Assembly: GCA_013141385.1 (NCBI GenBank)
Contig: JABFRB010000005.1
Location: 1-64,000, forward strand
Direction: 5' to 3'
From: Bacteroidales bacterium
GTDB lineage: Bacteria; Bacteroidota; Bacteroidia; Bacteroidales; Tenuifilaceae
Length of the DNA: 64,000 bases
Shown here in pieces: positions 41,880 through 55,434 of this stretch; positions within the stretch are counted from its first letter, which is position 1; each line of letters begins with the position of its first letter. The notes beneath the pieces are model-generated. The model ran no database searches. It was not told the origin of the DNA and was given only the letters and a program-made list of their open reading frames with translations. A program made the position numbers and the translations under genes.

Positions 41880-42038
41880 TTACCTTTTGTGACTTGGTTC
41901 GTCAGAAACAGTAAGTCTCTTTCTTCCTTTAGCACGACGAGCGGCCAACACTCTTCTTCCATTTGGGGTTGCCATACGCTCGCGGAAACCATGTTTATTT
42001 TTCCTCTTTCTGTTTGAGGGTTGGAACGTTCTTTTCAT
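41880..42038 (-). CDS. rpmH: 50S ribosomal protein L34
   Basis: A 52-aa basic protein. Read on the minus strand it starts [22 protein letters not shown] and continues [19 protein letters not shown], a textbook L34. The C-terminal extension ([10 protein letters not shown]) is typical of Bacteroidota. The gene is followed by its own terminator. The usual rnpA-rpmH-dnaA context is absent on this side. Confidence 0.97.
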
Positions 42039-42162
42039 TGCTTTATGCTTTTATATTTTTCTACTACTTGTGATTTTCAATACAATAAGTTCATCACCAG
42101 AACTTTTTTTGAGACTGCAAAGATAAACTTTTTTTGAAAGTAAAAAAACATCAATCAAAATT

Positions 42163-42786
42163 CTATTTGCGGGGGACAAATATAATTGATTTTCCTTCAA
42201 AATACTCCTCTTCAAAAAAAAATTCAATATCCCACTTTGTTAAATCCTTTTTAAAAGGGGCAAGTTCTTCCTTTAAATCACCCCCCTTTAACGCTATAAT
42301 TCCATTAGGAAGTTGATTTAAACCTCCCGGTTTAACAAGTTTCTGAACCCAATTAGCGATTGTTGATAAAGGGGCAACTGCACGGGTAATAACAAAATCG
42401 TATTCGCCATCTAATTCTTCTGCACGAGCTTTTAGAACCTTAACATTAGCTAAACCAAGCGATTGGGCTATTTCATTCGCCACAATAACCTTCTTTCCTA
42501 TAGAGTCAATCAGGGTAAATTTACAGTAAGGGAAAAAAATTGCCAATGGAATTCCAGGAAAACCACCCCCAGTTCCAACATCCAAAATCTTCGTGTTTTT
42601 TGCAAAAGATATAACCTTTGCTATAGCTAGTGAGTGAAGAACATGGTGAATATAAATATTCTCAATATCTTTCCTAGAAATTACATTGATACGTAAATTC
42701 CAATCCCTATACAGTGGTTCAAGTTGCAGTAATTGCTGACGTTGAATGGAATTTAACTCTGGAAAATATTTGATTATTTGATTCAT
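42163..42786 (-). CDS. rsmG: 16S rRNA (guanine-527-N7)-methyltransferase RsmG
   Basis: A 207-aa SAM-dependent methyltransferase for G527 of 16S rRNA. The N-terminal N-L-R-I-N-V-I-S-R-K-D and H-H-V-L-H-S-L are RsmG signatures. Motif I reads L-D-V-G-T-G-G-G-F-P-G-I-P-L, and the R-A-E-E-L plus I-T-R-A-V-A-P-L segments complete the fold. Length is normal. Confidence 0.95.
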   Translation of the reverse strand: MNQIIKYFPELNSIQRQQLLQLEPLYRDWNLRINVISRKDIENIYIHHVLHSLAIAKVISFAKNTKILDVGTGGGFPGIPLAIFFPYCKFTLIDSIGKKVIVANEIAQSLGLANVKVLKARAEELDGEYDFVITRAVAPLSTIANWVQKLVKPGGLNQLPNGIIALKGGDLKEELAPFKKDLTKWDIEFFFEEEYFEGKSIIFVPRK

Positions 42787-42961
42787 GGTTAAACTAATAA
42801 TATCGAAGTAATTTATCTGACTTTTAGAAAAATTGCTATAGTCATGGGATAATTTGCTTTTATTGGTTGTCTAATAATGACTTTTTAGCTAATTTTCTAG
42901 TATTGTTTCAATTAATCAATGATATGGCAACCACTAGATTACAGCAAACAAATTCGGTTAT

Positions 42962-43570
42962 TTAATGACGGGGACTATTTTTAAGAATATTGAAGAGTAG
43001 TTCACGAGCTCTGAACAACTGCGCTTTAACCGTTCCAATAGGAAGACCGAGTTCATCTGCTATCTCCTCATATGAAAACTCGCTAAAGTATCTTAATTCA
43101 ATTAACTTACGATATCTTGGTTTGAGTTTTCCAACAACCTCTTGAATTAGTTTAATATTTTGCTCTTTGATCAGCTGCTCTTCAGGATCGAGGTTACTCG
43201 ATTGTAAATGTGCGGTTGGGGATGAGATAGGGCCCTCCTGATCCTCCGCAGTATTGTCAATGGAAATAAGATTCGCTTTCTTTTTTCGGATAAAGTCGAT
43301 ACAATTATTTGTTGCTATTTTAAATAACCATGTGCTAAAAGCGTAATTTGGAGTGTATTGGTGGATGTTTTTAAATGCTTTTCCGAAAGCCTCAATTGTT
43401 AAATCCTCTGCATCACTCTTATTATTAACCATTTTCAGCAACATAAAGTAAATGGCATCCTTATATCTATCAAGTAATTCAGCGTAGGCCTTTTGATCAC
43501 CTTGAATGGCTTGGTCTACCAATACTAGATCGAATTTGGCTTTTTCTGATAGATTAGAATTTATCTCCAT
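42962..43570 (-). CDS. ECF-type RNA polymerase sigma factor
   Basis: A 202-aa sigma-70 family factor with regions 2 and 4 only. Region 2: D-A-E-D-L-T-I-E-A-F-G-K-A-F and F-S-T-W-L-F-K-I-A-T-N-N-C-I-D-F-I-R (about 55-100). A Ser/Pro-rich linker follows. Region 4 helix-turn-helix: L-R-Y-F-S-E-F-S-Y-E-E-I-A-D-E-L-G-L-P-I-G-T-V-K-A-Q-L-F-R-A-R. No anti-sigma gene is adjacent. Its start overlaps the 3' end of the glycosyltransferase gene by 10 bp, so the two are probably co-transcribed. Confidence 0.92.
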   Translation of the reverse strand: MEINSNLSEKAKFDLVLVDQAIQGDQKAYAELLDRYKDAIYFMLLKMVNNKSDAEDLTIEAFGKAFKNIHQYTPNYAFSTWLFKIATNNCIDFIRKKKANLISIDNTAEDQEGPISSPTAHLQSSNLDPEEQLIKEQNIKLIQEVVGKLKPRYRKLIELRYFSEFSYEEIADELGLPIGTVKAQLFRARELLFNILKNSPRH

Positions 43571-44703
43571 GTTGGCTTCCGAGGATTTAAACGATTTAGT
43601 AATAATAACCCTCCATAGAAGAAGAGCGAATAGAAATCGTAAAATAGCGAAAGTAGCAATAATTTCTTTTCACTCAAACGATTCATCACTCCTTTTATTA
43701 TTGATAGTTGCACTACCCACCGCAAAATGAAGGCGCTACCAATAACCCATGGATAGTAAACCATCGCTAGTAAAGCAATTGTAGAACCAAAAAATAAAAT
43801 TCGGGAGGTAATTTCACCACTTAACATTATCTTAGATAATAGATTATATCTTTTTGAAGTCGTGAGGTGTCTACGCTTCTGATTCACCCATCGCTCATAG
43901 GTATCTCTGGGAATGGTTCTAGTATGCGCATCATGTCTAAATTCAACTCTTGTGTTAGAATCTTTTGCTACCTCATTGATAAACAGGTCGTCATCACCAG
44001 AACAGAGATGAGCATGTGAGGCAAATCCTTTATTCTTAAAAAACAGATCTTTTCTGTATGCCAAATTTCTACCTACACCCATGTATGGTCTACCGTTTAG
44101 TGCAAATCCCAAATATTGCATTGCTATAAATAGCCCATCAAATCGAATGATTTTATTTAAAAATCCTTTTTCCTCAAAAAAACCTCCATAACCTAATACA
44201 ATCTCACAATTATCAGAAAACCCATCAGCTATTGATGAAAGCCACTTCTTACTATTGGGTCTACAATCCGCATCAGTTAAAACGAGCCAATCATTTTTAG
44301 CTGCTTTAATACCAACAGTTAGGGCTAACTTTTTGTTATGGGTAAATTTCTCATCCTGCTTTATTGTCGTTATCCGAAGGTTATCGTATTTTTTCGCAAG
44401 CGCTTCAAGCGTATATTCGCTATTATCAGACGAACAATCGTTAACAACAACTACCTCAAAGTCAGGATATTCCTGCTCCATAACGGAAGGCAAAAAGGAT
44501 AATAAATTTTCCTCTTCATCTCGGGCGCAAATTATTACCGAAATAGGTAGTCTAGGTGTTAAATGCTCTTCCAATTTATTTTTGTGTAATACTACTTTTA
44601 GGTAAATTCCAAGATAGTAATATAGCTGAATTAGAAAGGAGATGATAAAAATTGAAACTAGTACTAATTCGTAAATAGTTGAATTTGAAATTATTTCTCT
44701 CAC
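43561..44703 (-). CDS. Family 2 glycosyltransferase, membrane-bound
   Basis: A 380-aa inner-membrane glycosyltransferase. A transmembrane helix (about 11-33) precedes a GT-A domain with V-I-I-C-A-R-D-E-E-E-N-L, V-N-D-C-S-S-D-N-S, the D-A-D nucleotide-sugar/metal motif (L-T-D-A-D-C-R) and a late Q-K-R-R-H basic pair like the Q/RxxRW of processive enzymes. Two or three C-terminal transmembrane helices follow. Acceptor and product are unknown. It is upstream of, and overlaps, the sigma factor gene. Confidence 0.88.
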   Translation of the reverse strand: MREIISNSTIYELVLVSIFIISFLIQLYYYLGIYLKVVLHKNKLEEHLTPRLPISVIICARDEEENLLSFLPSVMEQEYPDFEVVVVNDCSSDNSEYTLEALAKKYDNLRITTIKQDEKFTHNKKLALTVGIKAAKNDWLVLTDADCRPNSKKWLSSIADGFSDNCEIVLGYGGFFEEKGFLNKIIRFDGLFIAMQYLGFALNGRPYMGVGRNLAYRKDLFFKNKGFASHAHLCSGDDDLFINEVAKDSNTRVEFRHDAHTRTIPRDTYERWVNQKRRHLTTSKRYNLLSKIMLSGEITSRILFFGSTIALLAMVYYPWVIGSAFILRWVVQLSIIKGVMNRLSEKKLLLLSLFYDFYSLFFYGGLLLLNRLNPRKPTWR

Positions 44704-44968
44704 GGTAAAGTCTTATTAAAACGACGACAATGATATTAAACATTTTTGTGTTTACCAACATGAGTTTGTATTGTTAAATCAAGATTTGTTAATAGAAACA
44801 GCTTATAATATTAAATTGTTCGTTTTCATTGAATTATCAATATAGTATTGGCTGATCAAAGTCCTACTTTTTATTTCAGCAAAATTCTATATTTTAATAG
44901 ATAATTCAACAATAAATTGTACCCTAATGATGAATTTGAAGCAAATTATTTTCAACAATGTTTTTAAT

Positions 44969-44976
44969 TATCTTTG
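44969..44976 (+). promoter_or_regulatory. tgt: -7 box of tgt
   Basis: TATCTTTG matches TAnnTTTG exactly, 20 bp before the tgt ATG. Confidence 0.65.
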
Positions 44977-44995
44977 ACCCTGAAAAATTGGGCTA

Positions 44996-46126
44996 ATGGA
45001 TTTTATACTTGAACATACTGACAGATCGTCAAAAGCTCGTGCAGGGAAAATTGCAACAGATCATGGTGAGATATTAACTCCAATTTTTATGCCTGTTGGC
45101 ACGGTTGGAAGCGTAAAAGGTATTAATCATCAGGATCTGGAGAATGATATTAATGCTCAGATAATCTTAGGGAATACCTATCATTTGTACCTACGTCCAG
45201 GATTAGAGGTTCTTGAAGCTGCGGGCGGTTTACATAAATTTTCGAGCTGGAATCGTCCAATCCTTACGGATAGTGGTGGGTATCAGGTTTTTTCTCTTAC
45301 CGAAAATAGAAAACTAACACGCGAAGGAGCCACGTTCCGTTCCCATATTGATGGCTCAAAACACAAATTTACACCCGAATACGTCGTTGATATCCAGCGA
45401 ATTATTGGAGCGGATATTATTATGGCATTCGATGAGTGCCCACCGGGTAACTCCGATTTTGAATATGCACGTAAATCGCTTGATTTAACTCAGCACTGGC
45501 TCGATAGGTGCATTAAACAATTCGATAGTACTGAACCCAAGTATGGTTATGGTCAAACTATTTTCCCAATCGTACAAGGATGTGTATACCCTGATTTACG
45601 TCGCAGAGCAGCAGAATATATAGCTGAGTTAAACCGCGAAGGGAATGCGATTGGTGGCCTGTCGGTTGGAGAGCCTGCCGAGGTTATGTATGAAATGGTT
45701 GATGTTGTAAACGAAATTCTCCCTAAAGATAAACCTCGCTATTTGATGGGGGTTGGAACACCAGAAAACATCCTCGAAGGAATTGCTCTTGGGGTGGATA
45801 TGTTTGACTGCGTTATGCCAACCAGAAATGGTAGGAACGGCATGCTTTTTACTAGTGAAGGGATTATAAATATTCGCAACCAAAAATGGAAGGACGATTT
45901 TTCATCAATTGATCCAAATGGTCTATCTTTTGTTGATATAAGATATTCCAAAGCATATTTAAGGCATCTATTTATTTCGGCTGAAATGCTTGGCCCACAA
46001 ATTGCAAGTATTCATAATTTAGGATTTTACCTTTGGCTGGTAAAAGAGGCTCGCGAACATATTTTGCAAGATGATTTTGCAGCATGGAAAAATCAAATGG
46101 TTAAAAAATTATCAGCGCGATTATGA
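44996..46126 (+). CDS. tgt: tRNA-guanine transglycosylase lacking the zinc cysteines
   Basis: A 376-aa enzyme that swaps guanine-34 of certain tRNAs for the queuosine precursor preQ1. The catalytic core is intact: L-T-D92-S-G-G-Y-Q-V-F-S-L, G-G-L-S-V-G-E and the nucleophile region D-M-F-D-C-V-M-P-T-R-N-G-R. The zinc site is odd. Where bacterial Tgt normally has C-x-C-x2-C before Y-S-R-A-Y-L-R-H-L, this protein has P-N-G-L-S-F-V-D-I-R-Y-S-K-A-Y-L-R-H-L, with no cysteine. The distal I-H-N-L is kept. The gene overlaps lptG by 4 bp. Confidence 0.94.
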   Translation: MDFILEHTDRSSKARAGKIATDHGEILTPIFMPVGTVGSVKGINHQDLENDINAQIILGNTYHLYLRPGLEVLEAAGGLHKFSSWNRPILTDSGGYQVFSLTENRKLTREGATFRSHIDGSKHKFTPEYVVDIQRIIGADIIMAFDECPPGNSDFEYARKSLDLTQHWLDRCIKQFDSTEPKYGYGQTIFPIVQGCVYPDLRRRAAEYIAELNREGNAIGGLSVGEPAEVMYEMVDVVNEILPKDKPRYLMGVGTPENILEGIALGVDMFDCVMPTRNGRNGMLFTSEGIINIRNQKWKDDFSSIDPNGLSFVDIRYSKAYLRHLFISAEMLGPQIASIHNLGFYLWLVKEAREHILQDDFAAWKNQMVKKLSARL

Positions 46127-47217
46127 GAGAAAAATACAGATTAAAAACAATTGACTATTACATAATTCGTAAGTTTATTGGAACTTATCTGTTTGCTATT
46201 GCTCTTATAGTAGGTATTGCAGTAGTTTTTGATATTTCAGAGAAATTGGATGATTTCATGGAAAAGAAACCTCCACTGAGTTATATCGTATTCAAATACT
46301 ACCTTAACTTCATACCCTATTTTGCTAACCTATTCAGCTCACTATTTACTTTTATTGCAGTTATTTTCTTTACATCGAAAATGGCCTATAACACTGAGAT
46401 AATTGCAATTCTTAGCAGTGGTGTCAGCTTCAAACGGCTGATGTACCCATACTTTATTTCAGCAACAATTATCGCTGTCTTTTCATTTTTTCTCACAAGC
46501 TTTATTATACCGCCAGCAAATCGAGTGAGGCTAGATTTTGAGAATACTTACATAAAAAGGCCTTTTCAGAATAGCGATCACAACATCCATAAGCAGGTTC
46601 GCCCAGGGGTTTTTGTATACATGGAAGCCTATAACTCATTTAGCCAAACTGGCTATAAATTCTCTCTTGAACATTTTGTGGATGGAAAATTACAGTCAAA
46701 GCTAATGTCGGACTACGCACGATGGGATTCTACTAAGGGAAAATGGGCAGTTCAAAACTATTACATAAGAACATATCTTGCAGAAGGTCAGGATATTAAA
46801 AAAGGAGAAAGGATTGATACTTCTATCTTTATTACCCCCAAAGATTTTACAATGAGAACAAGCGTTGTTGAAACCATGAATCTTTTCCAATTAAATGAAT
46901 TCATAGACCAACAGCGCCTTCAAGGTGCCGATACCATTGATGTGTTTTTAATAGAAAAACACAGCAGACTTGCATTCCCTTTCTCAACCTTTATTTTAAC
47001 GTTAATAGGAGTATCCCTATCGTCCCGAAAGGTAAGAGGTGGTATAGGTTTACATATTGGTCTTGGTTTAGCTATTAGCTTCTCTTACATCCTCTTCATG
47101 CGATTCTCCACCATGTTTGCCGTTGGTGGTTCATTAACCCCACTCTCTGCGGTTTGGATCCCAAATATTCTATTTGCTATTATAGCAGTTGGGCTTTACA
47201 GAATGGCACCAAAATAA
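46123..47217 (+). CDS. lptG: LptF/LptG-family lipopolysaccharide export permease
   Basis: A 364-aa inner-membrane permease of the YjgP/YjgQ family, part of the ABC complex that pulls lipopolysaccharide out of the inner membrane. It has three N-terminal transmembrane helices (I-D-Y-Y-I-I-R-K-F-I-G-T-Y at the start is typical), a periplasmic beta-jellyroll of about 150 residues and three C-terminal helices. The start overlaps tgt (ATGA). The last 130 bp of the gene are duplicated, in decayed form, at 49459-49747, beyond the peptide locus. F versus G cannot be decided from sequence alone. Confidence 0.88.
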   Translation: MREKYRLKTIDYYIIRKFIGTYLFAIALIVGIAVVFDISEKLDDFMEKKPPLSYIVFKYYLNFIPYFANLFSSLFTFIAVIFFTSKMAYNTEIIAILSSGVSFKRLMYPYFISATIIAVFSFFLTSFIIPPANRVRLDFENTYIKRPFQNSDHNIHKQVRPGVFVYMEAYNSFSQTGYKFSLEHFVDGKLQSKLMSDYARWDSTKGKWAVQNYYIRTYLAEGQDIKKGERIDTSIFITPKDFTMRTSVVETMNLFQLNEFIDQQRLQGADTIDVFLIEKHSRLAFPFSTFILTLIGVSLSSRKVRGGIGLHIGLGLAISFSYILFMRFSTMFAVGGSLTPLSAVWIPNILFAIIAVGLYRMAPK

Positions 47218-47273
47218 GATACGCAAAATCTGTTTTTCACATAACTATCCGCCAATATACCATATTATTTATT

Positions 47274-47281
47274 ATTTTTGA
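47274..47281 (+). promoter_or_regulatory. -7 box upstream of the thiol-oxidase fusion gene
   Basis: TATTTTTG fits TAnnTTTG, 95 bp before the ATG at 47376. It shows that the locus has its own promoter after lptG. Confidence 0.45.
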
Positions 47282-47375
47282 CAATATAATTAGCACCTAG
47301 TCGTACTAATTATCAATACGTATGTATTGTACGGATTAGTCCGAATAATATATTATATCATAAATAATATATAAT

Positions 47376-48995
47376 ATGCCCATTAATGATTCATTTATTT
47401 TTATTATTCACAAATTACTTCGCTCAAACAACTATGTTATTAATAAAAAAGAGCTGATTTTTCAATTAAACAGCAATCCATTTTATCCTAGTTTGCGAGC
47501 TGTTACAGGTTCTTTACAGCACTTTGTTAAAGAATGCTCTGCCATTGAAATTCCTGTTAACAAAACAGTTTTATGCCAATTACCTCATACTTTTATTGCC
47601 CAAACAAAAAGAGATGGACAGGAACTTTTTGTTTATGTAGAAAACAATGAGAATAACATTACTATTTATTACGACTCTTTAGATAAACAGAAACTTTCGC
47701 AGGAGAGTTTTCTGGAAATATGGACAGGAGTAATTGTAGCAATTGAAAAAAACCCATTGCCTTCAAATAAGCAGTTATCTAAATATCGGGAAATATCTGT
47801 TGGCGTTTTAATTATTATAGTCCTTGGTATATTTATCAATAGTAATGCTGGCATTTTTGAATTCTCCCATTTCTCACTTTCACTTTTAGGAATTGTTGTG
47901 TGCTGGTTAATTATTATGTATGAAATGGGTATACAATCGAACATCCTTGACAAAATATGTTTGGAGAATAATGAAGTATCTGGTTGTGATGCCGTAATGA
48001 ATTCATCAGGGGCAAAGCTGTTTGGGGAAATAAAACTCAGCGATGTAGGTATAGTGTATTTTATGTCCTTATCCTTGATTTGGATGTTTTGTGTATTTTC
48101 TCATTCAAACCCAATAGGAATCGTTCTAATTTCGGGCATCGCAATACCATTTACAATTTATTCGATATTTTACCAGTTCTGGATTGTAAAAAAGTGGTGC
48201 CCATTATGCCTTTCTATAGTTGGCATTTTATGGTTACAAGCCTTATCCGTAATATTTTACAAGCACAATAGTTTATTATCCATGGAGAATAATTCTATTT
48301 TGATAGTATTATTCTCAATCGTATTTTCATCAATTTTATGGGGCTTTGCTGCTCCAAAAATCATAGCAGAAAAGAATTTCCATGAAATTAAAGCCAAGCA
48401 CTATCGATTTAAACGAAATTTTTCTCTGTATAAAAAAATTATTGCCTCTAACCCAAAGGTAGATGCTAAAATCAAAGGGATTTCTGAAATCAGTTTTGGC
48501 AATAGAAATACTCCTCTTAATTTATGTTTCATCACCTCTCCTTTATGCGGCTATTGTAAGGAGGTGCATACCATGATAGGGAAAATTCTGACATTGGCTG
48601 ATAATAATGTTCAAATTACAATACGATTTAATATAAATACGAATTCAACAAGCAGTTTTTCTGCTAGAATATGTAGTCGGTTATTGGAAATATTTCATGT
48701 ATCGGGTGAAAGTAAATGTATGGAAGCTTTAGATGATATTTATGGTGATATAGCACCTGCTAAATGGATTCAAAAATGGGGAGAAACGGAGAATAGCAAA
48801 TTTAATACTATCCTATTAGAGGAACGGAAATGGTGTTTAGATAACAATGTTGATTTCACCCCTGAAATTTTTGTAAATGGCAGGGAGTTCCCAAAGGAGT
48901 ACGAAAGAACAGATCTATTGTTTTTTATCGAAGACCTTATTGAAAATCACGCTAATGATCAAATAAATCAAGAATTAATTACGGAAAAGCAATAA
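47376..48995 (+). CDS. C39-like / VKOR / thioredoxin fusion (peptide disulfide oxidase)
   Basis: A 539-aa membrane protein with three parts. Residues 1-128 resemble the C39 peptidase fold of bacteriocin exporters (F-Y-P-S-L-R-A-V-T-G-S-L, ending W-T-G-V-I-V-A-I-E) but have no N-terminal catalytic Cys, so this part probably binds a leader rather than cutting it. Residues about 140-335 are a vitamin-K-epoxide-reductase-type membrane domain with the loop pair C195...C204 (V-S-G-C-D-A-V-M-N-S) and the C275-P-L-C278 active site. Residues about 375-535 are a DsbA-like thioredoxin domain with C391-G-Y-C394. Such fusions form disulfides in exported proteins. The Cys-rich peptide gene 83 bp downstream is the obvious client (inference). 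Confidence 0.82.
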   Translation: MPINDSFIFIIHKLLRSNNYVINKKELIFQLNSNPFYPSLRAVTGSLQHFVKECSAIEIPVNKTVLCQLPHTFIAQTKRDGQELFVYVENNENNITIYYDSLDKQKLSQESFLEIWTGVIVAIEKNPLPSNKQLSKYREISVGVLIIIVLGIFINSNAGIFEFSHFSLSLLGIVVCWLIIMYEMGIQSNILDKICLENNEVSGCDAVMNSSGAKLFGEIKLSDVGIVYFMSLSLIWMFCVFSHSNPIGIVLISGIAIPFTIYSIFYQFWIVKKWCPLCLSIVGILWLQALSVIFYKHNSLLSMENNSILIVLFSIVFSSILWGFAAPKIIAEKNFHEIKAKHYRFKRNFSLYKKIIASNPKVDAKIKGISEISFGNRNTPLNLCFITSPLCGYCKEVHTMIGKILTLADNNVQITIRFNINTNSTSSFSARICSRLLEIFHVSGESKCMEALDDIYGDIAPAKWIQKWGETENSKFNTILLEERKWCLDNNVDFTPEIFVNGREFPKEYERTDLLFFIEDLIENHANDQINQELITEKQ

Positions 48996-49078
48996 CAATT
49001 GATTGATATCTAAAAATTTTACAGACTAAAACCGAGGGTGTCTATAAAGTTCCGAGGTAAAATAATAACAAATAACTT

Positions 49079-49279
49079 ATGTTAAAAAATTTATTAAACA
49101 TCGATGGTGCAAAACTTTTAAACAAAGTTGCACAAGAAAACATTAAAGGTGGTAAACCTGTACCAAGAATGTGTGCACTCGGCGGAATTTGTCCTCCAGG
49201 GTTTTGCTGTAAAAGTGGTGTTTGCATTGACGATACTCCAGGACCCGATGGGACTATTCCTGCATGTGATTCTTACTAG
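49079..49279 (+). CDS. Double-glycine leader, cysteine-rich peptide precursor
   Basis: A 66-aa precursor. Residues 1-25 form a leader (L-K-N-L-L-N...A-K-L-L-N-K...I-K-G-G) of the Bacteroidota natural-product-precursor type, ending in the Gly-Gly at which C39-type exporters cleave. The 41-residue core has six cysteines, C32, C38, C43, C44, C49 and C63: spacing C-x5-C-x4-C-C-x4-C-x13-C, the order used by inhibitor-cystine-knot peptides. A Gly/Pro-rich C-terminal loop lies between the last two. No modifying enzyme other than the upstream disulfide oxidase is present, and the cleaving exporter is not in the window. Activity (bacteriocin, signal or protease inhibitor) is unknown. Confidence 0.72.
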   Translation: MLKNLLNIDGAKLLNKVAQENIKGGKPVPRMCALGGICPPGFCCKSGVCIDDTPGPDGTIPACDSY

Positions 49280-49292
49280 ACCATAATCACTC

Positions 49293-49335
49293 AGAGGTTA
49301 TCTTCAAAAAACAGAAGCAACCTCTTGTTTTGAAT
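49293..49335 (+). terminator. Possible terminator 1 after the peptide gene
   Basis: GAGGTT and AACCTC can pair around an A-rich loop, followed by TTGTTTTG. This is weak; the stronger hairpin lies just downstream. Confidence 0.4.
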
Positions 49336-49344
49336 GAACTAAAG

Positions 49345-49374
49345 ATACTATGGATAAAAATCCATAGTATTTTT
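49345..49374 (+). terminator. Intrinsic terminator of the peptide locus
   Basis: ATACTATGGA (49345-49354) and TCCATAGTAT (49361-49370) pair perfectly around a 6-nt loop and are followed by TTTT. It lies 66 bp after the precursor stop. Confidence 0.85.
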
Positions 49375-49458
49375 AGTTATAGGCTTTTCTCCCAACCATC
49401 CAATATATTCTCAATAGCCTCATTTTATTCTAGCAACTCTTAAAAATTCAAACCAACT

Positions 49459-49747
49459 CTTCTTATATTCTTTTCATGCTATTCTTCACTATGTTTGCCG
49501 TTGGTGGTTAACCCCACTCTCTACGGTTTGGATTCCAAATATTCTATTTGCTATAAGAACGTCAGTTCGATGTAAGATGTCATCCTGAGCGAAGCAAAGG
49601 ATCTAATTGCCTAAAACCCAGACATTTCTCCTCGTTCAGCATGACAAAGTAACAATCTAATAGTGAACTGAGAATCAATATATTATACTTACATCGAACT
49701 GACGTTATAATAGTAGTTGGGCTTTATAGAGTAGCACACCCAAATAA
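49459..49747 (+). pseudogene. lptG: Decayed duplicate of the lptG 3' end, interrupted by a foldback element
   Basis: The stretches 49459-49555 and 49707-49747 align with lptG 47081-47217: shared runs include ATGTTTGCCGTTGGTGGTT, AACCCCACTCTCT, CGGTTTGGAT, CCAAATATTCTATTTGCTAT and GTTGGGCTTTA. Differences are mostly transitions plus a 3-bp loss (TCA) in the middle and stop codons, so the copy is old and non-functional. The break between the two pieces is exactly filled by the 149-bp foldback element. Confidence 0.88.
49558..49706. mobile_element. 149-bp foldback (MITE-like) insertion
   Basis: Perfect 19-bp terminal inverted repeats: AACGTCAGTTCGATGTAAG (49558-49576) and its complement (49688-49706). 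Non-coding interior. It is inserted in the lptG-tail pseudogene at the TAT-TATAG position of the parent sequence; TATAAG on the left and ATAATAG on the right may be a short imperfect target duplication. Its ends do not match the TATGATTGTCC family. Confidence 0.8.
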
Positions 49748-49825
49748 GGAAAATCTATTCTATGAATTCCAAATTGATTTACAATTTAGGTGCTTGAATT
49801 CCTGAATAACCAAATATCCTAACAA

Positions 49826-49846
49826 AATATCGCAATTTGCGATATT
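49826..49846. repeat. Short palindromic repeat (TATCGCA type)
   Basis: AATATCGCAATTTGCGATAT plus one T is a near-perfect palindrome, related to those at 4917, 61510 and 61890. Confidence 0.6.
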
Positions 49847-50004
49847 CCAAAAATTTGAGAAAAGGTGATGTATATGAAACATGCCTCAATTTGAATGTTT
49901 TCTAATCAATCCTTTTAAAACATCCTCCTTAACGATACATTAAAATGATTTTTGTATTTCCACCTTACTTTTATGTCTCCTCAAATGCAGCATCTGACTT
50001 AGGA

Positions 50005-50874
50005 TCAATTCATAGGATATAGGCGACCTTCAATCGATTCAACTACACTCAAAGTTTCAATAGCGTTCTCGATACCAAAACTTAAAGCTGATTTTTCAGA
50101 TATTTCTTGTATGTAAAGTTCCAGGTTTGCCATGAATCCTTCATCATTAAGCAGAAATTCTGGGGTTCTTAGAATATCCTCTTTAAATGCCAAACTATAA
50201 ATAGGCAATTCTTTAAAATACCCATCTTCGCCGGAAAAGAAGCGTAGCATACATTTCTCTGGCTCATTTACCCTTGTTAAACTTAATGCTATTACGCTGC
50301 CATTATCATATTCCAATCGAAGGTTAATGGCTTTGGGTGATTTAGTAAAAAGAGGCAAACCGTTAACTCTGAGTTTTCTCAAGCCACATGGTTTTATTCT
50401 AATAAAAGAGGCAATATCATATATCAGCATTCGCAAAAAAGCATCATCACTTATAGCTAAACCTGCATCTCGGGTGAGCTGTAACATAAAGTAATTACTT
50501 ATAATTTCATCTTGTTTTATTAAGATTTCACCAGCACAGCCAAAACCAACTGGAACGCCTATTTCAAGAGACAATTCATTGACTTCAATTAGTCCTGAAT
50601 GGGTGTAATCAGGAAGGCTTGCTAAAAAAATATTCACCCCTCTTCTAAGCACTTTAGCTGCAAAATTTAAATAGTTGGAGCTGTCAAGAAATACGAATGC
50701 CACATCTATTTGAACAAGGAGTTCATCCTCCGACTCAAAAGTCAATGGTTTTGAAACTATTGATCTATCATGATTTTTGAAGAAAGCCCCAACCAATTCG
50801 AAGTTATTGCTCTTTGCTATTTTAAGCAATAATTCTATACTGACTGGATATTGAAAAAAGAAGCCTGCTTTCAT
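50005..50874 (-). CDS. Gfo/Idh/MocA-like protein, divergent
   Basis: A 289-aa soluble protein. The N-terminal 110 residues look like a Rossmann-type domain as in Gfo/Idh/MocA oxidoreductases (V-A-F-V-F-L-D-S-S-N-Y-L-N-F-A-A-K-V-L-R-R-G-V-N-I-F-L-A-S-L-P resembles the region after the nucleotide fold). The Gly-rich dinucleotide loop at the start is not recognisable, so it may not bind NAD(P). The rest is mixed alpha/beta and unassigned. No operon partner. Treat the family call as tentative. Confidence 0.45.
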   Translation of the reverse strand: MKAGFFFQYPVSIELLLKIAKSNNFELVGAFFKNHDRSIVSKPLTFESEDELLVQIDVAFVFLDSSNYLNFAAKVLRRGVNIFLASLPDYTHSGLIEVNELSLEIGVPVGFGCAGEILIKQDEIISNYFMLQLTRDAGLAISDDAFLRMLIYDIASFIRIKPCGLRKLRVNGLPLFTKSPKAINLRLEYDNGSVIALSLTRVNEPEKCMLRFFSGEDGYFKELPIYSLAFKEDILRTPEFLLNDEGFMANLELYIQEISEKSALSFGIENAIETLSVVESIEGRLYPMN

Positions 50875-51115
50875 CTGTATAAATTTTTATAAAAAATTAA
50901 TATAGTATTAGTTATCATTTTGCTTGGTATTCTTTATCAACATGGACATTTCATAATCTTATTTATATTTCAATAAAATCAATACATTTTTTTTATCGTT
51001 AAATATTCAATTAATTTTTCTTACACAAACTTATTCCAAATTACTTCAAACAAGAGGAGTTTTCAACTCTTTTTATCAACTAAATAGTAACACCCTAAAA
51101 TCTTAAAACTCCTGT

Positions 51116-51123
51116 TATCTTTG
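51116..51123 (+). promoter_or_regulatory. pcm: -7 box of pcm
   Basis: TATCTTTG matches TAnnTTTG exactly, 29 bp before the pcm ATG. Confidence 0.65.
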
Positions 51124-51151
51124 CAATGATAATTATTGCTTAATAGCCAAG

Positions 51152-51796
51152 ATGCAGGATTCATACAGACATAAAGGGCTCAGAAAGAATTTGGTTGAAG
51201 AAATTAGGTTGAAAGGAATTTCTGATCAACGAGTTTTAGATGCAATAAATCGTGTGCCTCGCCATTTCTTTATGGATAGCGGTTTTATCAACTTTGCATA
51301 TAAAGATTCTGCTTTCCCTATTGGTGCTGGACAAACAATATCACAACCCTACACGGTTGCTTTTCAAACCCAACTATTGAGCATTCAACCCCACGAAAAA
51401 GTGCTCGAAATTGGTACCGGTTCAGGGTATCAAACAGCAGTTCTTATTGAAATGGGGGCAAATGTTTTTACCATTGAAAGGCAAAAGGAATTATATTTAA
51501 AAGCAAAAGCGTTGCTTGAAAGAATGGGTTATCGTCCACATCTCTTTTATGGGGATGGATATCTTGGAATGCCTAGCTACGGGCCTTACAATAAAATTAT
51601 TATCACTGCCGGAACGCCTGAAATCCCTGAGAAACTAATTGAACAACTGGATATTGGAGGGAAATTAATAGCTCCTGTTGGTGACAATACTAGTCAAGTA
51701 ATGACTTTAGTAGAAAAAATTAGTGCCACTGAAAGTAAGATAACTAAGCATGGAAACTTTATCTTTGTTCCCTTATTAAAAGGGGTAAAACAATAG
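51152..51796 (+). CDS. pcm: Protein-L-isoaspartate O-methyltransferase
   Basis: A 214-aa SAM-dependent enzyme that methylates isoaspartyl residues in aged proteins and so starts their repair. Signatures: V-P-R-H-F-F, Y-K-D-S-A-F-P-I-G-A-G-Q-T-I-S-Q-P-Y, motif I V-L-E-I-G-T-G-S-G-Y-Q-T-A and I-I-T-A-G-T-P-E-I-P. Length is normal. It starts a likely operon with the metallo-hydrolase gene 15 bp downstream. Confidence 0.95.
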   Translation: MQDSYRHKGLRKNLVEEIRLKGISDQRVLDAINRVPRHFFMDSGFINFAYKDSAFPIGAGQTISQPYTVAFQTQLLSIQPHEKVLEIGTGSGYQTAVLIEMGANVFTIERQKELYLKAKALLERMGYRPHLFYGDGYLGMPSYGPYNKIIITAGTPEIPEKLIEQLDIGGKLIAPVGDNTSQVMTLVEKISATESKITKHGNFIFVPLLKGVKQ

Positions 51797-51811
51797 TATA
51801 AATTTAACATA

Positions 51812-52447
51812 ATGGTACAAATCAAGCAGTTAATTCTTAATCCTTTTCAAGAGAATACTTACATTATTTACGATGAAACCAAAGAAGCAGTTATTATTGA
51901 TGCTGGTTGTCATACCCAGTCGGGTATTGATGAGGTTAAGAATTTTGTCGGTAAAGAAAATCTAAAGATTAAGTACTTATTAATCACACATGGACATATC
52001 GACCATATTATAGGGCTTCAACCACTTAAAGAAATATATCAAGTTGAATGTCTCGCTCATGCCGATGAACTTGCACTGATTAAATCAATTCCTGCACAGG
52101 CGCTTATGTTTGGATTTGAGATGGATAAAGCACCAGTAATTGACAAAACTTTTAAGGATGGCGATAAAATTACTTTTGGAAACTCATGTATTGAAGTAAT
52201 ACATACGCCCGGTCACTCAAAGGGTGGAGTTTGCTTTCTGCTTCGTGAGCCAAAAATTCTTATCTCTGGTGACACCCTTTTCCAAGGATCTATTGGTCGA
52301 ACTGATTTAGGAGGAAACTATGAAACATTAATTTCGAGTATTATTAATAAACTTATTCCGTTGGGTGACGATGTTGTGGTCTACCCTGGACATGGCGATT
52401 CCACAACTGTTGGGTATGAAAAAAAGCACAATCCGTTCCTCCGATAG
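51812..52447 (+). CDS. Metallo-beta-lactamase-fold hydrolase
   Basis: A 211-aa hydrolase with the zinc motif T-H-G-H-I-D-H, later ligands in H-T-P-G-H-S-K-G-G and S-G-D-T-L-F, and a final Y-P-G-H-G-D. The compact glyoxalase-II-like form is common in Bacteroidota; thioester or sulfur-compound hydrolysis is possible, but the substrate cannot be read from sequence. It follows pcm by 15 bp and precedes gcvP by 119 bp. Confidence 0.88.
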   Translation: MVQIKQLILNPFQENTYIIYDETKEAVIIDAGCHTQSGIDEVKNFVGKENLKIKYLLITHGHIDHIIGLQPLKEIYQVECLAHADELALIKSIPAQALMFGFEMDKAPVIDKTFKDGDKITFGNSCIEVIHTPGHSKGGVCFLLREPKILISGDTLFQGSIGRTDLGGNYETLISSIINKLIPLGDDVVVYPGHGDSTTVGYEKKHNPFLR

Positions 52448-52566
52448 CAACAATTACAAAAAACTTTTTCTAGAAATTGATATTTCTCAACTTTTATCAG
52501 CAATCCTTTTTTTAATTTTACATCACATTTTGAACTATTTTCAATTAAACTATAAATTCAAAAATA

Positions 52567-55434
52567 ATGATAACTGATTCCTTTGTTTCACGTCATATTG
52601 GTCCTCGCGACCACGAATTAGATGAAATGTTAAAAGTTATTGGCGTATCAACGCTTGATGAACTTATTAACCAAACAGTTCCAACCAATATACGCTTAAA
52701 AAGACCTCTCAACCTACCTGCTCCGATAACTGAACATGAGTACTTAAACAAAATCAATGCTTTAGCAGCAAAAAACAAGATTTTCCGTTCTTTTATTGGC
52801 TTGGGATATTATGGTACTGCGACTCCAGCAGTAATCATGCGCAATATATTTGAAAATCCAAGTTGGTACACTTCATATACTCCATACCAAGCAGAAATTA
52901 GCCAAGGTCGTTTAGAGGCTTTGTTAAACTACCAAACCATGGTTATGGATTTAACAGGTATGCAAATTGCCAATGCCTCGCTTCTTGATGAATCAACCGC
53001 AGCTGCTGAGGCAATGATTATGATGCATAACCTTCGTAGTCGCCAAGCAGTAAAGGATGGTAAGAATGTAATTTTTGTTGATAGAGATATCTTCCCACAG
53101 AATCTTGAGGTCATCATTACACGTGCAAAACCGCTGGGAATTGAAGTGGTAACAGGATGCTACAGCCAATACACCTACACAGGAAAAGAATTTGGTGCAA
53201 TTGTTCAGTATCCATCAGCCAAAGGAACTGTTAGAGATTATGCAGAATTTACAACCAAAGCTCACGAAGCAGGTGTTCTTGTTTCTGTAATCTCAGATCT
53301 TTTAAGCCTTGCCCTTATTACACCTCCTGGTGAATGGGGAGCTGATATCGTTGTTGGATCAACCCAACGATTTGGTGTTCCAATGGGATTTGGCGGTCCT
53401 CACGCTGCATTCTTTGCAACTAAAGATGAGCACAAACGCAGTATGCCGGGTCGTATCATAGGTGTTTCAATCGATAAACATGGCAATAAAGCGTTACGTA
53501 TGGCTTTGCAAACCCGCGAGCAACACATCAAGCGCGAACGTGCAACCTCAAACATCTGTACAGCACAAGCACTTCTTGCCACAATGGCTGGCATGTATGC
53601 TGTATATCATGGACAAGAGGGAATTAAGAGAATTGCTTCATACACCCATAGTGCCGCAGTAATTGTTGCTACCGAACTAACAAAATTAGGCTACACACAG
53701 AATGTAAGAAGTTTCTTCGATACTCTTGAGATTTCTCTTCCAGCATCAGTGAGTTTAAACACAATTAAAGAAAAAGCACTTGCAAACAAGTTGAATTTCT
53801 TCTATAAAGAGAACGGTAGTATTGGTATCAGCTTCGATGAACTAACCAACGTTAGTGATATTAACTGCATTTTAACTGTATTTGCCGAAGCAAATGGCAA
53901 AAAAGCAACAGCAATCACCGCAATCGTTGAATCAAACCAAATACCTGCTAACCTAAAACGTAAAAGCAGCTATTTAACTGAGAAGGTATTCAACATGTTC
54001 CACTCCGAAACCGAAATGATGCGGTATATCAAGAAGTTGGAACGTAAAGATATCTCCCTAACCCATAGTATGATTTCATTGGGTAGCTGCACTATGAAAC
54101 TTAACGGTGCTGCTTTAATGTTGCCACTTAGCCGTGCAGAATTCGGAAGCATCCACCCATTTGTTCCAGTGGATCAGGTTGCTGGTTATATGGAGATGAT
54201 TCACGATTTAGAAAAATATTTAGCCGAGATAACTGGTTTTGCAGCAGTTTCGCTCCAACCAAACTCTGGTGCAGCTGGTGAATATGCTGGATTAATGGTT
54301 ATCCGTCAGTATCATATCGATAGAGGCGACACGCATCGTAATGTTGCTCTAATTCCTGCATCTGCGCATGGAACAAACCCTGCAAGTGCTGCTATGGCAG
54401 GCATGGAGGTTGTAGTTGTTGCCTGCGATGAAAAAGGGAATATCAACGTAGATGATTTAAAGGCAAAGGCAGAACAGCTTAAAGATAAACTTTCATGCTT
54501 TATGGTTACCTACCCATCCACTCACGGGGTATTTGAGTTCAAAATTCGCGAGATGATGGATATTATTCACAAGAATGGTGGTCTAGTTTACATGGATGGT
54601 GCTAACATGAACGCACAGGTTGGACTTACCAGCCCAGGCGAGATTGGTGCTGATGTTTGCCATCTCAACTTACATAAAACCTTTGCAATTCCTCATGGTG
54701 GTGGTGGTCCAGGTGTTGGTCCAATTGCTGTTACAAAGGAACTTGCTCACTTCCTTCCTTCACACCCTGTTGTAAGAACTGGTGGTGATAAGGCTATTAC
54801 CGCCGTTGCCGCTGCTCCTTACGGAAGTGCAAGTGTTCTGCCAATTACCTATGGATATATCCTAATGCTAGGTGGCGAAGGTTTAACAAACGCTACCAAG
54901 TGGGCTATTCTAAATGCAAACTACATGGCCACCCGCCTAAAAGGACATTACAGCGTTCTTTACACTGGCGAAACTGGACGTGTTGCACATGAGATGATCC
55001 TCGATTGCCATCATTTTAAGGCAACCTACGATGTTGAAACAGGTGATATCGCTCGTCGTTTGATGGATTATGGATACCATGCTCCTACCCTATCATTCCC
55101 TGTTCATGAAACTTTAATGGTAGAACCAACCGAAAGCGAATCCAAGCAAGAACTAGACCGCTTTGTTGATACTTTAATTACCATTAAAAAAGAGCTTGAT
55201 GATATTAAAGATGGCAAAGCCGATAAGGTTGATAACGTAGTTAAGAATGCTCCTCACACAGCCACCGAAGTTACTGCCAATGAGTGGAACCATACCTATG
55301 GTCGTCAGAAAGCAGCATTCCCACTGCCTTGGATTGCTGGGAATAAGTTCTGGCCAGCAGTTGGAAAGATAGATTCTGGTTATGGTGATAGGAATTTAGT
55401 ATGCTCATGTGCTCCAATTGAGGAATACTTGTAG
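52567..55434 (+). CDS. gcvP: Glycine dehydrogenase (decarboxylating), P-protein
   Basis: A 955-aa PLP enzyme of the glycine cleavage system, releasing CO2 from glycine and passing the aminomethyl group to the H-protein lipoyl arm. Single-chain form with both halves: N-terminal F-I-G-L-G-Y-Y-G-T and G-V-P-M-G-F-G-G-P-H-A-A, and the catalytic half with H-G-T-N-P-A-S-A-A and N-L-H-K704-T-F-A-I-P-H-G-G-G-G-P-G, where Lys704 binds PLP. Codon use is visibly richer in GC and in preferred codons than in the neighbours, suggesting high expression. gcvT and gcvH are not adjacent. Confidence 0.97.
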   Translation: MITDSFVSRHIGPRDHELDEMLKVIGVSTLDELINQTVPTNIRLKRPLNLPAPITEHEYLNKINALAAKNKIFRSFIGLGYYGTATPAVIMRNIFENPSWYTSYTPYQAEISQGRLEALLNYQTMVMDLTGMQIANASLLDESTAAAEAMIMMHNLRSRQAVKDGKNVIFVDRDIFPQNLEVIITRAKPLGIEVVTGCYSQYTYTGKEFGAIVQYPSAKGTVRDYAEFTTKAHEAGVLVSVISDLLSLALITPPGEWGADIVVGSTQRFGVPMGFGGPHAAFFATKDEHKRSMPGRIIGVSIDKHGNKALRMALQTREQHIKRERATSNICTAQALLATMAGMYAVYHGQEGIKRIASYTHSAAVIVATELTKLGYTQNVRSFFDTLEISLPASVSLNTIKEKALANKLNFFYKENGSIGISFDELTNVSDINCILTVFAEANGKKATAITAIVESNQIPANLKRKSSYLTEKVFNMFHSETEMMRYIKKLERKDISLTHSMISLGSCTMKLNGAALMLPLSRAEFGSIHPFVPVDQVAGYMEMIHDLEKYLAEITGFAAVSLQPNSGAAGEYAGLMVIRQYHIDRGDTHRNVALIPASAHGTNPASAAMAGMEVVVVACDEKGNINVDDLKAKAEQLKDKLSCFMVTYPSTHGVFEFKIREMMDIIHKNGGLVYMDGANMNAQVGLTSPGEIGADVCHLNLHKTFAIPHGGGGPGVGPIAVTKELAHFLPSHPVVRTGGDKAITAVAAAPYGSASVLPITYGYILMLGGEGLTNATKWAILNANYMATRLKGHYSVLYTGETGRVAHEMILDCHHFKATYDVETGDIARRLMDYGYHAPTLSFPVHETLMVEPTESESKQELDRFVDTLITIKKELDDIKDGKADKVDNVVKNAPHTATEVTANEWNHTYGRQKAAFPLPWIAGNKFWPAVGKIDSGYGDRNLVCSCAPIEEYL

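Follow-up and report, generated by a model that had tools for sequence, protein, structure and literature searches.

The two genes at positions 47,376-49,279 of the window, the 64,000-nucleotide stretch of a Tenuifilaceae (Bacteroidales) genome that was analysed, raise the question of why a membrane-bound thiol oxidase should be followed by the gene for a small peptide rich in cysteine, and at which membrane face the one might act on the other. The initial annotation described the first product as a fusion of a C39-like domain, a vitamin K epoxide reductase (VKOR) domain and a DsbA-like domain, the second as a precursor with a double-glycine (GG) leader, and the pair as an oxidative-folding machine for that one peptide. 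The reading favoured here, at a probability of about 0.6, is that the fusion is a dedicated, cytoplasm-facing membrane oxidase that would fold GG-leader, Cys-rich peptides with the leader attached, before their export by a C39-peptidase ABC transporter (PCAT).

Domain architecture of the fusion protein

The fusion gene (47,376-48,995; plus strand, as are the other coding features below) encodes 539 amino acids. Pfam searches placed a VKOR domain (PF07884) at residues 168-290 (E 7e-15; 55.8 bits against a curated cut-off of 27.5), a Peptidase_C39 domain (PF03412) at residues 54-126 (27.7 bits, cut-off 22), and Thioredoxin_4 at residues 371-514, this last under the family cut-off (E 9e-4). The structure was predicted with AlphaFold2 from 72 sequences (mean pLDDT 89.8, pTM 0.72), and the comparison of the model with solved structures was a re-examination of the best 1000 chains from Foldseek. 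Residues 160-303 (47,853-48,284), the VKOR core, resembled Synechococcus VKOR (4nv2) with a Z of 13.9, which is modest for a helical bundle; the Pfam match backs the identity. Residues 359-525 (48,450-48,950), the DsbA/ScsC-like domain, resembled ScsC (5idr, Z 16.9). The core contains the loop cysteines C195 (47,958-47,960) and C204 (47,985-47,987) and the CPLC motif of residues 275-278 (48,198-48,209), so that both marks of the VKOR family, a match above the curated cut-off and two cysteine pairs, are present; the DsbA/ScsC-like domain contains the CGYC motif of residues 391-394 (48,546-48,557). These six cysteines and P496 were invariant in 22 diverse fusions collected by whole-protein search, where they made up seven of 11 invariant columns. 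They were likewise seven of 24 invariant columns in 72 fusions found mostly by pattern, although the invariance of C391, C394 and P496 in that set is partly due to selection because the search patterns included C391/C394 and T495-P496. The redox parts named in the initial annotation therefore form a complete six-cysteine relay.

Residues 1-128 (47,376-47,759) constitute the putative GG-leader receptor. The Pfam match spans only positions 61-131 of the Peptidase_C39 profile, and thus the half with the catalytic cysteine is absent. In the model this region resembled PCAT1 (VIA-align Z 14.3) and, at Z 13.5, the structure 6mpz of a C39 protease in complex with a leader peptide, and hhalign matched it to the C39 domains of 49 exporters from the same loci as fusions (E 7e-5, probability 62%). 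In the alignment derived from hhalign, the position aligned with the catalytic histidine (residue 84) is histidine in six of 72 fusions. An active C39 protease was rejected because the Pfam match starts past the Cys motif and so few rows keep the histidine. What the domain has is a C39 fold without catalysis, as in HlyB. The C39 domain of a PCAT acts on GG peptides, and the C39-like domain of HlyB is an inactive substrate receptor; in both the fold is joined to an ABC transporter, whereas in the fusion it is joined to an oxidase. The proposed composition, including a C39-like domain without its catalytic cysteine, was borne out by the Pfam matches, the invariant cysteines and the structural comparisons.

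Several relatives depart from this architecture. One (L189:4387-6042) retains DCGPSC in its C39 domain, which is joined to a VKOR and a thioredoxin-like part, and it is possibly an ancestral form or an oxidase that is able to cleave too; its cluster also contains a TIGR04148 radical SAM peptide maturase. Three others (L190:5624-6697, L191:5592-6596 and L192:5598-6701) are C39-like/VKOR proteins of 334-367 amino acids without a thioredoxin domain, and they were rejected as loci of the bacteroidetocin type (see below) since no adjacent GG Cys peptide or exporter was recognised by eye. In a Parabacteroides distasonis plasmid record (L187:5499-7044) the annotation has two overlapping genes, one for the C39-like part and one for the VKOR/thioredoxin parts. 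Such separately annotated parts, also seen at L151 and L160, were dropped as evidence on topology because the overlapping frames look like frameshifts.

Precursor peptides paired with the fusion

The precursor gene (49,079-49,279) starts 83 bases after the stop of the fusion gene. Its 66-residue product comprises a GG leader of residues 1-25 (49,079-49,153; GG at 24-25) and a 41-residue core (49,154-49,276) with the spacing C-x5-C-x4-CC-x4-C-x13-C, formed by C32, C38, C43, C44, C49 and C63, which agrees with the Cys-rich precursor first described. A homologue, 42% identical and with the cysteines and a GPxGxxPAC end kept, directly follows the fusion in a genome of another family. No Pfam or NCBIfam family matched the window peptide up to an E-value of 1, five paralogous peptides gave sub-threshold matches only (for example to leader_Chryseo and TIGR04149), and no curated RiPP precursor family scored above its cut-off for the window peptide or the scanned relatives. 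The C-C-CC-C-C order of the six cysteines is that of conotoxin VI/VII and of many knottins, a likeness in Cys order alone, here in a bacterial peptide with a GG leader. The peptide model was weak (pLDDT 64), and a structure search with it returned nothing significant; the nearest folds were mostly cyclotides (kalata), with a conotoxin and an engineered knottin, at E 3.5-9.4, and since no match was better than E 3.5 the knot fold, with its 1-4, 2-5 and 3-6 disulfides, is not established. Of the knottin-like client proposed earlier, the cysteine spacing therefore stands and the fold does not.

AT-rich DNA readily yields small open reading frames by chance, in which case the second gene would be spurious and unrelated to the first. 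Pairing was first counted among 84 genes of the same genome, taken from the window and six further stretches picked around VKOR fusions and exporters. Only three have, no more than 1 kb downstream and in the same orientation, an open reading frame with a GG leader and at least four cysteines, and all three encode close fusions. The genome has four VKOR proteins, of which these three are 39-40% identical; the fusion on contig C36 is followed by three GG Cys peptides and that on C11 by two. The fourth, a distant fusion on C41, has no GG Cys peptide downstream. It adjoins a protein with a Cys-rich end that appeared SPASM-like on reading the sequence.

Within the family, 7 of 27 genomes had a match to the fusion; the corresponding counts were 15 of 393 genomes for the order (at 1e-20) and 24 of 395 for the class (at 1e-15), the own genome included each time. 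Scanning species genomes turned up 93 relatives, and the best 80 of the 93 loci were kept, mostly from Flavobacteriaceae (Tenacibaculum, Lacinutrix, Aquimarina) and Bacteroidales metagenome genomes. A same-strand reading frame with a GG leader and at least four cysteines lies within 1 kb of 60 of the 77 fusions for which 1.1 kb or more of downstream DNA was available (two of the three remaining fusions also have a peptide), compared with 42 of 352 other genes of the same loci, a control inflated at least partly by long peptide arrays such as those of L063 and L095. Under a rule accepting GG or GA leaders a peptide lies within 1 kb in 64 of the 80 loci and not in the other 16, the two counts differing because the leader rules differ. 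When the whole fetched locus and both strands are considered, with no background control, the same rule finds a peptide in 75 of 80. Five loci were without a peptide with a GG leader and at least four cysteines: L086, where only 274 bases lie downstream, L113, L115, L129 and L131. In samples not chosen by pattern, a peptide was present within 1.4 kb in 13 of 14 loci from the order and 18 of 25 from the class (none in 7 of 25). The order sample omits own-genome rows as well as L043, L044, L045 and L046, which are cut or contain VKOR only; the class sample omits L151, L160 and L161 (split frames), own-genome rows and matches without a given locus; and both partly overlap the 80 loci (for example L033 = L053, L034 = L062 and L133 = L104).

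A chance origin of the small reading frame was rejected on these counts, made both within the genome and across genomes; with a homologue that keeps the cysteines and the terminal motif, it is scarcely credible. The initial annotation had named two outcomes that would speak against it, fusions seldom near GG Cys peptides and a 66-residue frame that is not conserved; pairing proved common and a homologue was found, so the dedicated pairing is upheld. The pairing defines a widespread family, often with several peptides and usually with its own exporter. Relatives have up to 8 peptides per locus, so that the notion of a machine for a single peptide had to be given up. Arrays of up to 8 different GG Cys peptides per fusion, with 4-8 cysteines, occur at L056, L060, L071, L072 and others. 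In the plasmid records consulted, the fusion is labelled 'vitamin K epoxide reductase family protein', and 'hypothetical protein' is the label of the small genes that follow.

The 80 loci gave 177 distinct cores, for which at least two cysteines were required by rule. Of these, 162 have an even and 15 an odd number of cysteines (p 2.5e-32, ignoring relatedness), with two cysteines in 2 cores, three in 2, four in 81, five in 7, six in 60, seven in 6 and eight in 19; the leaders contain 2 cysteines in 4136 residues. The C-C-CC-C-C framework of the window peptide recurs in 26 of the 177 cores and C-C-C-C in 77, and most cores differ from that of the window. The peptide alignment set the window peptide beside 21 of the 26 peptides of this framework, so that the invariance of its cysteines is by choice. 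Among 210 same-locus peptide pairs, leaders are 73% identical and cores 25% (cysteines excluded). Judged by sequence, conserved leaders joined to hypervariable cores are the pattern of diversifying toxins.

The same pattern bears on what the C39-like domain does. It might bind no leader, and instead dock the oxidase to the PCAT exporter or persist as an ancestral relic, and the relative that keeps DCGxxC (L189:4387-6042) allows that the domain descends from an active C39 peptidase and has lost its job. We consider this doubtful, since substrate reception is a known role of C39 domains and of the inactive C39-like domain of HlyB, and the leader is conserved across unrelated cores. In the favoured reading, the leader would be held by the inactive C39-like domain.

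It may also be asked whether disulfides are the main modification. TIGR04148 radical SAM maturases lie beside some relatives (L189, L196), and a LanC-family gene beside one, as would suit thioether-crosslinked or otherwise modified RiPPs for which the fusion is a late accessory. Against this, no modifying enzyme was recognised by eye among the open reading frames of 42,000-55,000 in the window, and the TIGR04148 cluster of L196 has its own precursor gene while a knottin-type peptide follows the fusion; we regard the proposal as quite improbable.

The DNA around the cassette was also inspected. A 19-bp inverted repeat after the peptide gene (49,337-49,378, unstranded) is a possible transcription terminator, of which only the minus-strand reading was flagged, and a sigma-70 promoter scan gave 10 sites against 13.3 expected. 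At 49,461-49,748, on the plus strand, the 3' end of lptG is present a second time in decayed form, and this copy matches the real lptG end (47,083-47,218) at 88% over 98 columns and 81% over 43. Because the cassette is flanked by both copies, it may have been inserted at, or duplicated with, the lptG end. The decayed copy is split by a MITE-like element (49,551-49,713; about 163 bases, 26-bp terminal inverted repeats), whose 19-base end has 54 occurrences genome-wide with at most one mismatch, compared with 0 for the reversed control.

Exporter genes and membrane sidedness

Among the 71 loci that extend 6.9 kb or more beyond the fusion, a same-strand C39-peptidase ABC transporter (with DCGxxC) was found in 48, a HlyD-type adaptor in 48 and both in 46, the usual order being fusion, peptide(s), C39-peptidase ABC exporter and HlyD adaptor. 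The minimal two-gene system first proposed is therefore not general in the family. Contig C5, which holds the window locus, has no C39 match besides the fusion itself and hence no linked exporter. The three C39-peptidase ABC transporters of the genome are on contigs C2, C16 and C22, and that on C16 is a likely partner in trans because it is 89% identical to the exporter adjoining the fusion in the sister locus L059; from this identity, the unlinked C16 PCAT is probably the exporter for the window fusion. PCAT channels are able to carry small folded cargo. In several Tenacibaculum loci (L060, L064, L066, L071, L072, L073, L093, L109 and L111) an open reading frame of 941-942 amino acids, with a phmmer match to an ABC-exporter query, ends about 0.9 kb upstream of the fusion.

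Six membrane helices are present in the fusion model. Its match to Synechococcus VKOR begins at residue 160, at the first helix of that VKOR, and the preceding helix of residues 132-155 (47,769-47,840) is extra. With this helix, the C39-like domain shares a membrane face with C195/C204, CPLC and the DsbA-like domain, the redox side being assigned by counting model helices. In the model, all the redox parts and the C39-like domain are thus on one side of the membrane. The loops of the redox side carry 7.94 Lys and Arg per protein (0.159 per residue) versus 0.75 (0.031) on the other side, and the bias is toward the redox side in all 72 fusions of the alignment, which holds 71 of the 80 loci besides the window fusion. 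The sign was the same in all 21 rows of a second alignment (13 new proteins and 8 repeats) and in 17 of 17 further proteins, among them three that lack a thioredoxin domain and one whose C39 motif is intact. Neither the six cyanobacterial VKORs nor the two C39-less Bacteroidales VKORs showed the inverted bias, all eight having the opposite sign. Under the positive-inside rule, the Lys/Arg excess points to a cytoplasmic redox face. The first 120 residues of the fusions have a mean of 12.2 Lys/Arg, and no hydrophobic segment lies ahead of the first helix; the absence of such a segment before a charged 128-residue domain agrees with the same orientation. A cytoplasm-facing redox side is, from these sequence features, most likely. 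The positive-inside argument is statistical and made over related rows, and the redox-side loop is long, so that substrate binding is another possible role of its lysines.

A disulfide enzyme that faces the reducing cytoplasm is unusual in mesophilic bacteria. Characterised bacterial VKOR/DsbA pairs act in the periplasm, and the nearest folds of the DsbA-like domain are periplasmic ScsC/DsbA-type proteins. The fusion might accordingly be a dedicated oxidase in the usual orientation, whose periplasmic VKOR and DsbA-like parts oxidise the peptide after its cleavage and release; the C39-like domain would then be periplasmic too, or cytoplasmic if helix 132-155 fails to span the membrane. This reading appears rather unlikely: the charge bias is inverted throughout the fusions and normal in every conventional VKOR compared, the charged N-terminal domain would have to cross the membrane with no hydrophobic segment before it, and cleavage after GG would leave the C39-like domain no leader to hold. 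With a cytoplasmic orientation, leader binding and oxidation of the core could be combined in one protein ahead of export; the conventional orientation would not allow this.

In the cytoplasm-facing reading, the client would be the 66-residue product, one of the small GG-leader, Cys-rich peptides to be exported. With its leader still attached, its core cysteines would be oxidised on the cytoplasmic face by the DsbA-like domain, which would be reoxidised by the VKOR core, electrons passing from C391/C394 to C195/C204, to C275/C278 and to quinone. The folded, perhaps cystine-knot-like precursor would then reach the PCAT, probably that of C16, which would cut after GG and secrete a peptide that is probably bacteriocin-like.

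Comparison with known systems and implications

The closest parallel found is with the bacteroidetocins, class IIf bacteriocins of Bacteroidota of which A and B have four cysteines; in the accessible text of the source (PMC6671954) their loci contain, besides a GG peptide and a C39-type ABC transporter, a thiol oxidoreductase and a 5-TM protein. According to the same text, deletion of the thiol oxidoreductase attenuates toxin activity, and the enzyme is proposed there to form the disulfides. The fusion family resembles these loci in combining a GG-leader Cys peptide, a thiol oxidoreductase and a C39-type ABC transporter, the two oxidoreductases being likened by description and locus content only. 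The bacteroidetocin loci differ in having the 5-TM protein and four-Cys peptides, and the portion of that source available describes no leader receptor or sidedness. The window locus has a GG-leader peptide with at least two cysteines, and no C39-peptidase ABC transporter was found in it. The family would work like bacteroidetocin loci, and a cytoplasm-facing, leader-guided oxidase would go further.

Synechococcus VKOR (4nv2/4nv6) shares with the fusion the four-helix core, two cysteine pairs and a fused Trx-fold domain; the fusion differs in its N-terminal C39-like domain, one more helix, a DsbA/ScsC-like domain and the inverted charge bias. The VKOR of Aeropyrum pernix is a general oxidase and not a peptide-dedicated fusion. 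Its reported action in two compartments (Hibender 2017, cited in PMC12453122) provides an archaeal precedent for a VKOR topology serving a second, cytoplasmic compartment. In the open-access literature searched, no description was found of VKOR paired with GG peptides, bacteriocins or knottins. Whether the fusions amount to a widespread class of leader-guided, cytoplasm-facing oxidases, in which an inverted VKOR with a GG-leader receptor would fold hypervariable, conotoxin-like peptides before export, we judge to be an even bet.

If the reading is correct, a self-contained, leader-selecting enzyme would install the disulfides of exported peptides in the cytoplasm, an unusual place for their formation in bacteria, and leader-dependent disulfide formation would become a RiPP-like maturation step. 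Such an enzyme would be a portable tool to fold Cys-rich peptides in ordinary laboratory bacteria, and the 177 distinct cores of the 80 loci would open an uncharted set of Cys-rich peptides. In the accessible text of PMC6671954, Bacteroides is said to lack general disulfide machinery; a dedicated oxidase of this kind would help to explain how disulfide-rich peptides are produced in Bacteroidota.
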